DNA from: an uncultured Caryophanales bacterium
Lineage (GTDB): Bacteria > Bacillota_I > Bacilli_A > Acholeplasmatales > Anaeroplasmataceae
Length of the DNA: 57,231 bases
NCBI GenBank assembly: GCA_946405105.1
Contig: CAMJFY010000010.1
Location: forward strand, 1-57,231
Direction: 5' to 3'
Positions 20,135 to 50,117 of this stretch are shown here, in pieces. Position 1 is the stretch's first letter. Each line of letters opens with the position of its first letter. The notes below the pieces were generated by a model. The model had not been told where the DNA came from. It saw only the letters and a program-made list of their open reading frames with translations, and did no database searches. The position numbers and the translations under genes are program-made.

Positions 20135-20360
20135 AATAAAAAAATCCTTAAGAATAAATCTTAAGGACGAATTATCGCGGTACCACCTTAATTCTGTATA
20201 ACAATATACAGCACTCAAATACTTTAACGCAGTAATACGTAGGGTTCTACTCTGTTCTTCCCTAATCCTCCGAGCTGTTGTCCGATTATTAGTATTATCC
20301 TCTCTCACCAAACAGGATTCGCTTAAATACACCTAAATCATTCTTCTCATCTTAGGATTT
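20135..20360 (-). promoter_or_regulatory. T-box riboswitch, asparagine type
   Basis: The 14-base T-box (AAGGTGGTACCGCG on the minus strand, 20189-20176) pairs with the tRNA acceptor end and precedes a terminator stem (20145-20152 with 20161-20167, then a T run). Stem I closes with AATCC/GGATT (20359-20355 with 20068 plus 200, i.e. 20268-20264). The distal AGCGA and GGTG elements are present. In the specifier loop the bases GACAACAG place codon AAC (asparagine) at 20279-20277, matching asnA. The leader ends about 15 bases before the asnA start. Confidence 0.93.
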
Positions 20361-20469
20361 ACGAATTAATTTTATAACACTTTTGTATATTTGTATAGTA
20401 TTTTTTACAAAAAAGTGATTTTTTTAAATAAAATTTTAATTTTTTGTTAAAATTTAGAATAAAATTCAA

Positions 20470-47485: not shown

Positions 47486-48718
47486 TTACTTTAAATTCTT
47501 ATTCTTTTCATTAACTAATGCTTGAACCTTAATTGGAAGTCCAAATAGATTAATGAATCCTGCTGAATCAGCTTGGTTATATGCTCCACCATCATCATCG
47601 AATGATGCAATGTCCATATTATGTAATGTCCAAGGAGATGTAATACCTGCAGGGATAATGTTACCCTTGTATAATTTTAACTTAACATCACCAGTAACAT
47701 GCTCTTGAGTCTTATCAACGAATGCTGATAAAGCTTCTCTTAATGGTGTATACCATAAACCATTGTATACTAAATCTGCAAACTTATCAGAAATTTGCTT
47801 CTTGTAATGACTAGTTTCCTTATCTAATGTAATAGATTCTAGTAATTCATGTGCTTCATAAAGGATAGTTCCACCTGGAGTTTCATAAACACCACGGCTC
47901 TTCATACCAACTAGACGGTTTTCAACGATATCTAAAATACCAATACCATTTCTTCCACCTAATTTATTTAATTCCCAAACTAAATCAACAGCGCCCATCT
48001 TCTTGCCGTTAACTGCTGTAGGAATACCCTTTTCGAAATGAATTGTTACATATTCAGGCTTATCAGGAGCTTGCTCTGGAGAAACACCTAACTCTAAGAA
48101 ACCTGGCTTATTGTATTGTGGCTCATTTGCTGGATCCTCAAGATCTAGACCTTCATGAGATAAATGCCATAAGTTCTTATCCTTAGAATAATTTGTTTCT
48201 CTTGAAATACGTAGAGGAATATTATGAGCCTCTGCATAATCAATTTCTTCATCTCTTGACTTAATATTCCATTCTCTCCATGGAGCAATAATCTTCATAT
48301 TAGGAGCGAATGCCTTAATAGTTAATTCAAATCTTACTTGGTCGTTACCCTTACCTGTACAACCATGACAAATTGCATCTGCGCCTTCCTTTAATGCGAT
48401 TTCAGCAATTCTCTTTGCAATAATAGGTCTTGCAAATGAAGTACCTAATAAATACTTCTCATATTTTGCACCAGCCTTAACAGTTGGGAAAATGAAATCC
48501 TCAACGAATTCCTTATTTAAATCCTCAATATATAATTTAGATGCGCCTGTCTTAATAGCCTTTTCCTCTAATCCATCAAGCTCATCTGCTTGTCCAACGT
48601 TACCAGATACAGCAATAACCTCACAGTTATTATAATTTTCCTTTAACCAAGGAATAATGATTGATGTATCTAATCCACCTGAATAAGCTAATACTACCTT
48701 CTTAATACTTTTATCCAT
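47486..48718 (-). CDS. argG: argininosuccinate synthase
   Basis: Joins citrulline and aspartate using ATP. 410 residues. The PP-loop is [16 protein letters not shown] (about 9-24); substrate-binding blocks are [26 protein letters not shown] and [25 protein letters not shown] supports the start. First gene of the operon argG-argH-argC-argJ-argB-argD-argF, behind a T-box and a second structured leader. Confidence 0.97.
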
Positions 48719-48747
48719 TTTTCTTTCCTCCTATACGTATTAATATT

Positions 48748-48946
48748 AAAAAAAAGCGTCTCAAATAAACATTTAAGAGACGCTTCATTTTGCGCGGTAC
48801 CACTCTTTTTGCATATCAAAATATGCCACCTCTAATTATTTCACCTACCTAGGCTCGTTTCAGATATCATTCATGCTATGCTTCCACCATTCACAGCTCT
48901 CTATAAATCCAAAATATCTTACTTTTCCTTTATCATCGGTGATATA
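48748..48946 (-). promoter_or_regulatory. T-box riboswitch upstream of argG
   Basis: GAGTGGTACCGCGC (48805-48792 on the minus strand) is the T-box that pairs with the tRNA end. A strong terminator follows (AAGCGTCTC 48754-48762 with GAGACGCTT 48777-48785 and a run of eight T). Stem I runs from 48942 to 48841, closed by TCACC/GGTGA, with the GATGA kink-turn, AGTA of the specifier loop, and AGAGAG and GGTGGAA of the distal loops. The 3' side of the specifier loop reads GAAACGAG, which contains CGA (arginine) and, in another register, ACG. Confidence 0.9.
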
Positions 48947-48957
48947 AAAGATTAATA

Positions 48958-48986
48958 AAGAAAAAAGGACTGTTGAGTCCTTTTTC
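48958..48986 (-). terminator. first terminator in the arg leader
   Basis: Stem AAAAAGGACT with AGTCCTTTTTT, loop of 4, T run on the minus strand. It lies before the T-box, so transcription of the arg genes must pass two terminators. Confidence 0.75.
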
Positions 48987-49105
48987 TTTGAAAGGACAAT
49001 AATTATGAATGACATAATATTGCTCTTTCATAATTATACTCAAGTTTATTTTATTAAACTATCTTTGCTAGGGTATCTATTAAGGAACCGGCCCAAAATA
49101 GATAC
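48958..49105 (-). other. structured leader segment upstream of the argG T-box
   Basis: On the minus strand, between the promoter and the T-box, four helices occur in order: a 9-bp stem 49105-49097 with 49081-49073 and a 15-base GC-rich loop; a 6-bp stem 49060-49055 with 49048-49043; an 11-bp stem 49037-49027 with 49009-48999; and an intrinsic terminator (48985-48976 with 48971-48961, then T). GTCCTTT at 48997-48991 can pair with the terminator's 5' arm, forming an antiterminator. No known riboswitch family is recognised. A short frame (ATG near 49030) runs through it but has no strong ribosome site. Confidence 0.6.
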
Positions 49106-49109
49106 TTCT

Positions 49110-49137
49110 ATTATAATACTTTAGTGTCTATTGTCAA
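49110..49137 (-). promoter_or_regulatory. promoter of the arg operon
   Basis: TTGACA (49137-49132), 16 bases, TATAAT (49115-49110) on the minus strand. Transcription would start near 49103, about 385 bases before the argG ATG. Confidence 0.85.
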
Positions 49138-49203
49138 TACTTTTAACCTTTGCGAAGCAACTAAAAGCGTTTTCATATATCCCTTATTATTATAAATAAT
49201 AAG

Positions 49204-49245
49204 TTTACATATCATTTTTTTAATGTTATAATGCTTTTTGGTGAT
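49204..49245 (+). promoter_or_regulatory. promoter and GGTGAT ribosome site of hslO
   Basis: TTTACA (49204-49209), 17 bases, TATAAT (49227-49232), then GGTGAT at 49240-49245 and the ATG at 49251. The leader should be only about 12 bases. Confidence 0.7.
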
Positions 49246-49250
49246 TTATT

Positions 49251-50117
49251 ATGGATAATTATTTACAAAAGGCATACTGTATGCACCAAACAGTAAGAAT
49301 ATATGCTGCTATTACTACTGAAATGGTTAGAAAGGTTCAAGATGATTTCAATATGTGGCCTACTAGCATTCAAGCATTAGGCAGAACATTAACAATTGGT
49401 GCTATAATGTCATGTACATACAAAAATGATGATTTTATTAATATTAAGGTAAAGGGTGATGGCCCTGTAGGACAAATAATTGTTGAGGGGCATGACGGTA
49501 AGGTTAGAGGCTGTGTAACTAATCCTGGAGTATTTTTACAAAACAATGATGGTTCTGTAAATGTTACTCATGGAGTAGGTGCTGGTGAAATCGAGGTTAT
49601 TAAGGATTTACACCTTCGCCAACCATTCTCTTCTTCTTGTGAGATAGTTGCTGGAGATATCGCAAATGATTTCACATATTATTTTGCAAAATCTGAACAA
49701 ATACCATCTTCTGTTGGTCTTGGTGTATCATTTACTAATGATTCAAAGGTTAAAGCTGCAGGAGGCTTCTTAATTCAAGTTATGCCAGGATGTAGTGATG
49801 AAGATCTAACTAAGCTTGAAAATAAGCTTAAAACATTAAAACCTTGTACAAAGATGATTGATGAAGGATATAATGCTGAAGATATCATTAGAGAAATAAC
49901 TGATGGTGATTATGAGCTATTAGAAACTAGAGAATTAAAATATGAATGTAATTGCTCATACGAAAGATTTGAAAATGGTCTTAGAACATTAGGTAAAGAA
50001 CAGCTATTAGATATCATTAATAATGATCACAAATGTGAAATAACTTGTAACTTCTGTAATAAGAAATATACATTTGATGAAAAAGGATTAATGAATATTG
50101 TTAATTCAATAAAATAA
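49251..50117 (+). CDS. hslO: redox-regulated chaperone Hsp33
   Basis: Holdase switched on by oxidation. 288 residues. The N-terminal domain (AYCMHQTVRIYAAITTEMV, KVKGDGPVGQIIVE, GEIEVIKDLHLRQPFSS) is followed by the zinc switch: the CxC of YECNCSYER and the CxxC of CEITCNFCNKKY, about 30 residues apart, plus the linker GLRTLGKEQLLDII. All four zinc cysteines are kept. Single-gene unit, divergent from the arg operon. Confidence 0.96.
   Translation: MDNYLQKAYCMHQTVRIYAAITTEMVRKVQDDFNMWPTSIQALGRTLTIGAIMSCTYKNDDFINIKVKGDGPVGQIIVEGHDGKVRGCVTNPGVFLQNNDGSVNVTHGVGAGEIEVIKDLHLRQPFSSSCEIVAGDIANDFTYYFAKSEQIPSSVGLGVSFTNDSKVKAAGGFLIQVMPGCSDEDLTKLENKLKTLKPCTKMIDEGYNAEDIIREITDGDYELLETRELKYECNCSYERFENGLRTLGKEQLLDIINNDHKCEITCNFCNKKYTFDEKGLMNIVNSIK

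Follow-up and report, generated by a model that had tools for sequence, protein, structure and literature searches.

Our analysis of a window of 57,231 nucleotides (the whole stretch of DNA under study), which comes from an Anaeroplasma-type mollicute of a lineage of wall-less gut bacteria, suggests that positions 49105 to 48958 of the minus strand encode a conserved attenuator ahead of a T-box, and that this attenuator acts as an orphan RNA sensor, akin to a riboswitch, for a signal related to arginine. Based on sequence comparison, we assign a probability of roughly 0.6 to this reading, and it is plausible that the signal is a small molecule bound directly by the RNA. Both elements precede the operon argGHCJBDF, and ArgG, H, C, J, B, D and F each yield an NCBIfam hit above cut-off.

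The preliminary description of this region had proposed a consensus promoter, a chain of perfect inverted repeats and a second attenuator standing ahead of a T-box with its own terminator, and we recover each of these on the minus strand (Table 1). The repeats comprise 9 bp (GTATCTATT/AATAGATAC), 6 bp (AGTTTA/TAAACT) and 11 bp (ATAATTATGAA/TTCATAATTAT, at 49037-49027 / 49009-48999); nine invariant pairs of the last (49037-49029 / 49007-48999) are named P3 below, and the leader through P3 spans ~105 nt. The heptamer GTCCTTT (48997-48991) is the complement of positions 48983-48977 and thus of part of the terminator, whose arms AAAAAGGACT/AGTCCTTTTT occupy 48985-48976/48971-48962. This terminator (48986-48961) is the sole one in 48600-49300, where 0.1 is expected in shuffles, and the 149-nt leader folds with -37.6 kcal/mol as compared with -20.85 +/- 3.37 for shuffled sequences (z -4.97; 0/200 as good).

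Table 1. Features of the argG leader and its surroundings, in coordinates of the window.
Feature	Position	Strand	Remarks
hslO	49251-50117	+	upstream neighbour of argG leader
Putative cre-like box	49165..49175	-	TGAAAACGCTT; 5' of promoter
Sigma-70 type promoter	49110..49137	-	TTGACA-N16-TATAAT; 12/12 matches
P1 5' hairpin	49073..49105	-	9 bp + U-U internal loop + 3 bp
Core	49038..49068	-	GC-AAA-GAU, P2 hairpin, U-GA-GU; kink-turn-like flanks
Core sites flanking P2		-	AAAGAU / UGAGUAUAA
P2 arms	49060-49055 / 49048-49043	-	within core
P3 5' arm	49029..49037	-	AUAAUUAUG; identical in 28/28 aligned core matches
P3 3' arm	48999..49007	-	CAUAAUUAU; identical in 28/28 aligned core matches
a1	49017..49029	-	pairs with a2 (anti-antiterminator)
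a2	48990..49002	-	partner a1 or a3; includes GTCCTTT 48997-48991
a3	48976..48985	-	terminator 5' arm; alternative partner of a2
a4 and U-tract	48961..48971	-	terminator 3' arm
T-box leader	48773..48945	-	Rfam RF00230; specifier CGA (Arg) 48857-48855; T-box sequence 48806-48793
T-box terminator	48748..48791	-	inverted repeat and T run
argG, first operon gene	47486..48718	-	operon argGHCJBDF = 48718-40947

The pairings a1:a2, a2:a3 (the antiterminator) and a3:a4 (the terminator) are mutually exclusive, and all three covary. The overlap of GTCCTTT with the terminator arm had already been taken to create an antiterminator and a terminator that exclude each other, and covariation of both pairings bears this out; the pairing a1:a2 (49029-49017 with 49002-48990), which sequesters GTCCTTT, was absent from the earlier list. 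For each pairing, the energy of the duplex formed by segments of one leader was set against that formed by segments of different leaders, using permutations, for 27 of the 28 leaders (L031, cut by a contig end, was omitted). The values are -12.17 within versus -7.72 between leaders for a1:a2, -10.18 versus -7.31 for a2:a3 and -14.56 versus -8.74 for a3:a4, in each case with 0/20,000 permutations as good, whereas the control pairings a1:a3 and a2:a4 gave 16,518 and 11,591, respectively. The pairing a1:a4 also covaries (20/20,000), which counts against our reading but would be expected if a1 resembles a3. To answer the relatedness among leaders, nine dissimilar representatives were picked by eye, for which 1, 3 and 0 of 100,000 permutations were as good for a1:a2, a2:a3 and a3:a4, the controls yielding 61,698 and 46,877 (62% and 47%). 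Sequence comparison thus points to an expression platform with mutually exclusive structures.

The predicted energies indicate how such a platform could work. Before a3 is made, folds with P3 have a mean of -10.4 kcal/mol and the best folds in which the 5' arm of P3 is blocked a mean of -10.26 kcal/mol (free fold, -13.26), and by these modelled, near-equal values the switch is poised. The loop of P3 contains a1, and a2 follows P3 immediately, so that by geometry P3 and a1:a2 should exclude each other. The minimum-energy fold of the full leader combines a1:a2 with the terminator in 24/27 leaders; in L058 and L061 it places a1:a4 around a2:a3, in L062 it contains a1:a2 with the terminator broken, and P3 is part of it in 0/27; the last three observations count against our reading. 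With termination as the default, read-through would need a signal. P3 with the antiterminator (mean -16.93) is less stable than P3 with the terminator (-23.29), the latter being 6.4 kcal/mol better, and hence antitermination must be kinetic, acting before a4 is made. We thus envisage that formation of P3 would leave a2 free to pair with a3, so that transcription could continue to the T-box, which would then read tRNA-Arg, whereas formation of a1:a2 would allow a3 to pair with a4 and transcription would end; a signal bound by the core would choose between P3 and a1:a2. Because the energetic default is termination, a signal that stabilises P3 would turn the operon ON. We lean somewhat towards such a gate, in which the folded core means ON and acts as an AND gate with the tRNA-Arg T-box, because in the tandem copy of genus g2 (see below) a folded core would also accompany read-through. 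An ON switch would be compatible with a precursor or with a signal of starvation. For an OFF switch responding to arginine the bound core would have to block P3, and to the same slight degree we lean against this.

The core itself is strongly conserved in sequence. Alignment of 28 core matches to the model shows AAAGAUAG and CUUGA, like both P3 arms, to be identical in 28/28, and the flanks AAAGAU and UGA are likewise present in 28/28, spanning two families (L003, cut by a contig end, was excluded from all core alignments). Kink-turns are marked by a three-base bulge, an NC helix, a C helix and tandem GA on both strands. We take the three-base bulge, the tandem GA on both strands and the U-U beside P2 to be such marks in the core; it is named 'kink-turn-like' only, since its lower helix has ~2 pairs, with exceptions. 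A pattern script that demanded GAT, TGA and at least 4 P2 pairs found 33 core copies in 31/32 loci and missed L062, although its core fits. Among these 33 copies the first P2 pair is A-U in 30, C-G in 2 and G-U in 1, the second G-C in all 33, the third U-A in 27, G-C in 4 and A-U in 2, and the fourth U-A in 27 and A-U in 6; across lineages, three of the four pairs thus occur in 2-3 standard types. Below the bulge, the first pair of the C helix is C-G in 25, U-G in 4, A-U in 3 and A-G in 1 of these GAT/TGA-filtered copies, and the second is G-U in 30, U-U in 2 and A-C in 1; the core of L168 has a 2-nt bulge.

It had been proposed to look for covariation in the three stems, and here the outcome differs from stem to stem. 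RNAalifold, applied without guidance to 21 leaders of the genus, predicts P1, P2 and P3, and shuffles equal the observed value for the P1-P3 structure in 2 to 35 of 500, depending on the measure. Few changes are seen in P1, where 2/12 pairs are changed on both sides, in one sequence each. P2 is 100% paired in the 21 unfiltered leaders, with one pair changed on both sides in one sequence within the genus, and its covariation becomes clear across lineages, among which both its sequence and its loop vary. P3 exhibits no compensatory change in the 21-leader alignment; being invariant, its pairing cannot be supported by covariation. The gap between the P3 arms ranges from 13 to 23 nt in 28 leaders. 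The comparison thus suggests a conserved, aptamer-like core with a variable, covarying helix. The 15-base loop of P1 had been considered as a ligand pocket or pseudoknot. It is indeed GC-rich, and contains an extra 3-bp stem, but a ligand pocket at this site is contradicted by the observation that P1, conserved within the genus, is not kept outside it, whereas the P2/P3 core is: unrelated hairpins occupy its place in genera g6 and g7, a second core copy occupies it in g2, and in a second family only a weak fold is predicted for the 45 nt that precede the core (-1.9 to -3.8 kcal/mol).

Homologous leaders, whose collection had been suggested as a check, are present in relatives. ArgG was found in 23/27 genomes of the window's genus (g1), and the core in 21/22 of the regions upstream of argG that were read, the 22nd (L003) starting inside the leader at a contig end. 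In all 21 leaders a promoter TTGACA/T-N16-TATAAT lies 90 to 98 nt before a common core landmark, and the T-box sequence is present at all 22 argG loci of the genus as well as at both of g6. A pattern scan of 84,980 species returned 29 stretches, of which three were read: one (L142) belongs to a named strain, Anaeroplasma bactoclasticum ATCC 27112, and carries the full leader, while L139 and L154 are coding sequence and were discarded as chance matches. The titles of the remaining stretches are Acholeplasmatales, Anaeroplasma and loosely labelled metagenome-assembled genomes (Bacillales, Erysipelotrichaceae, Clostridium, Mollicutes). Some g1 genomes devoid of argG also contain the leader, whole or in part. 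One of them (G026; loci L037/L131) has kept the whole leader; a Cof-type hydrolase and an acyl-ACP-thioesterase-like gene follow there, as named by eye. Three others (G010, G020 and G022; loci L053, L054 and L055) have kept the cre-like box, the promoter and P1, with the hairpin of P1 followed immediately by 8 U's and the rest of the leader gone, and the promoter-proximal part with P1 may serve a separate function.

Within the family, model R2 matches 28/55 genomes at E 2.1e-8 or better, namely 23/27 of g1, 2/3 of g2, 2/2 of g6 and 1/1 of g7, with no match in the 22 genomes of g3, g4 and g5; ArgG was detected in 25/55, in g1 and g6 only. Both g6 genomes have the leader ahead of a T-box and argG, and in g2 (L058) and g7 (L062) it is followed by an amino-acid ABC transporter; the other g2 locus (L061) stops at the terminator, with its downstream gene out of view. 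A class-wide search of 395 genomes yielded 11 with a match at E <= 0.001, of which 7 belong to the same family, 3 to another family (G238, G414, G420) and one (G493) was rejected as lying inside coding sequence. Extension of the model with leaders of the second family adds G230, and thus 4/15 genomes of that family, and nothing more in 43 genomes of its order; all four of these leaders are intergenic and stand directly before an ABC transporter operon. All occurrences of the element known so far come from mollicute-related bacteria that belong to one GTDB class. Eight of the weak R2 matches (L121-L128) were dismissed by eye as chance, most being in coding sequence and none having leader context. 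The core pattern CAAAGATN{8,38}TGAGTATAA gave 15 non-leader matches in 160 genomes of the order, compared with 21 for a reversed-pattern control, and scanned viral contigs gave 0 and 0 matches.

Genus g2 offers a variation on this architecture, in that a second, upstream core copy with its own terminator-like hairpin is present (L058 1606-1648, minus strand; L061 1461-1503, plus strand). By eye, this copy sits in a possible stem UAGACAG/CUGUCUA, the 3' strand of which is the 5' arm of its terminator; the free fold of the stretch favours another structure. Between the terminator and the transporter gene of L058 and L062, small frames beginning MKVRRN... and MEGRRF... can be discerned by eye. 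Possibly, these Arg-Arg frames constitute a second arginine sensor that replaces the T-box.

The upstream element has 0 matches among 4227 Rfam families at gathering level, as the proposed search with all covariance models brought out, and in the window and 15 loci (L002 being the window's own) only T-boxes reach that level. At E up to 10, matches to the region other than the T-box stay below gathering (best, SraG with 27.4 bits versus 50) and were set aside. Positions 48958-49105 have no RF00230 match at E up to 10 and contain no T-box sequence, and the leader of g2 locus L129 has no Rfam match at E up to 1. For the T-box announced downstream of the first terminator, the match at 48945-48773 scores 84.7 bits (E 6.3e-19), short of the gathering threshold of 93, and a T-box sequence and a terminator can be read there; RF00230 exceeds gathering in 5/10 loci scanned, with A. 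bactoclasticum (L142) below. No T-box reaches gathering level in L129 and L130 (g2 and g7), and the second-family loci L161-L163 and L169 have no Rfam match at that level, T-box included. The upstream element and RF00230 share transcription attenuation by antiterminator and terminator, and differ in that the former lacks RF00230 match and T-box sequence and precedes the T-box.

Several other explanations for the conserved leader have to be weighed. It could be the binding site of a regulatory protein, that is, of an RNA-binding antiterminator or attenuator which perhaps recognises the kink-turn and P3, and this we regard as unlikely, yet worth keeping in view. The nine P3 pairs, invariant in 28/28 aligned core matches from two families, and the kink-turn-like flanks would suit such a site, and in PMC7583486 the kink-turn is described as a feature of T-box stem I, with YbxF/YlxQ as known protein partners. 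On the other hand, no candidate regulator gene was seen by eye in the operon, and P2 differs in sequence and loop among lineages. Quite improbable is a terminator that is simply constitutive, reducing read-through or yielding a small RNA from the argG promoter, and that senses nothing. Such a terminator would agree with the promoter, P1 and U-tract retained in three argG-less species and with the terminator winning at equilibrium in 24/27 leaders, but it would have no need of pairings a1:a2 and a2:a3 that covary, or of an invariant core that is maintained in different families.

We consider it very improbable that the AT-rich inverted repeat acts at the DNA level, as an operator of the ArgR type, with incidental RNA pairing. 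Although the P3 arms hold an invariant palindrome, ATAATTAT, a search for ArgR (PF01316) covering the window's family found it in 0/55 genomes, many of them incomplete, as compared with 9/14 for the positive control; the spacing between the arms is variable over the 28 leaders, and a1, a2, a3 and a4 covary as RNA, so that an ArgR operator was rejected. Equally remote is ribosome-mediated attenuation by a leader peptide starting at the AUG inside P3, which the preliminary description had already disfavoured. The attenuators of the trp and his operons form mutually exclusive 1:2, 2:3 and 3:4 hairpins. The successive pairings a1:a2, a2:a3 and a3:a4 resemble these in excluding one another, their three-hairpin layout matches the classical one, and the AUG lies in the 5' arm of P3 in 28/28 aligned core matches. 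However, inspection by eye shows a frame of 4 codons in L004 and L006 and of many more in others, e.g., L002, and the frames read contain no arginine run and no clear ribosome-binding site. Hence, unlike in the trp and his attenuators, a leader frame that is rich in arginine and has a ribosome-binding site is not seen, nor is a conserved short ORF with a run of regulatory codons, and this candidate was rejected as well.

Returning to a sensor RNA, we note that, wherever they can be read, the genes after the leader either form the arginine operon or encode an amino-acid ABC transporter, with G026 as the sole exception. Since such genes follow and no ArgR was found in the window's family, the signal is most likely arginine status. 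Substrate-binding proteins were compared for L129, L130 (a permease fusion), L163 and L168. TIGR01096 (Lys/Arg/Orn) is the best substrate-binding model for L129, L163 and L168, and a cystine model is best for L130, each below cut-off, and glutamine and cystine models score close by. Among solved chains, 4i62 is the best for L129, 4yms (permease) and 4h5f for L130, 6h30, named a glutamine transporter, for L163, and 4ymx for L168. Judged from these comparisons, arginine is the best candidate for a substrate joining the transporters with argG. As no argG was detected in g2 and g7, arginine itself, or else a general signal, appears more probable than a biosynthetic intermediate. It is then tempting to speculate that the element represents a naturally occurring class of riboswitch for arginine, or for a signal derived directly from it, which replaces ArgR and acts in series with an arginine T-box. 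We hold this to be doubtful at present, our estimate having been lowered because two of the four transporter proteins, each by one of two comparisons, are nearer to relatives for cystine or glutamine. If it were true, free arginine status and the charging of tRNA-Arg would be read successively by two RNAs on the same transcript.

A bacterial arginine riboswitch was not found in listings of the open-licence literature, the lone result having concerned magnesium and RNA stability, and the element itself appears in none of the listings searched. A 2022 review (PMC10043782) considers claims of a fungal arginine riboswitch insufficiently supported, and PMC7266159 points out that positively charged arginine can mislead in RNA-binding tests. 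Orphan riboswitch candidates obtained by comparative genomics, such as those of PMC2864571 and PMC8040213, likewise combine a conserved, covarying RNA core and an expression platform ahead of the genes of one pathway; the element described here differs in matching no Rfam family at gathering level, and may be listed unnamed in a supplement. The review PMC9481103 reports T-box(Leu) leaders that carry a ppGpp riboswitch in tandem, an arrangement that likely forms a logic gate, and such tandems are also described in PMC7583486. In the leaders of PMC9481103 a distinct riboswitch, which has an expression platform to itself, stands in series with the T-box and before amino-acid genes, as our putative sensor would; unlike them, the element has no ykkC-type match, and its T-box is read as Arg or is absent. 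Since tandems of this kind have already been described, the use of a T-box in serial logic has precedents, and the leader adds a further case. Standing before genes of arginine biosynthesis or amino-acid uptake, it offers a testable candidate sensor for the missing arginine riboswitch class, and suggests that a lineage with small genomes has swapped a protein repressor for RNA.

Finally, the surroundings of the leader merit brief comment. The box at 49175-49165, which presumably deserves the label 'cre-like', suggests carbon control of the arg promoter; the exact pattern TGAAAACGYTT is found in 19/21 leaders, where it begins 27 to 39 nt before the -35 element. A second T-box in the window (20160-20362, minus strand; 98.9 bits) lies ahead of asnA and is devoid of the upstream element. 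The specifier of the argG T-box of the window is read as CGA+G, i.e., an Arg codon followed by a purine, at a one-base offset relative to most relatives. Among 24 leaders the specifier is CGC or CGT in 16, CGA, AGA or ambiguous in 4, and UGA in 4, the last group consisting of L007 (read by eye), L010, L015 and L017.
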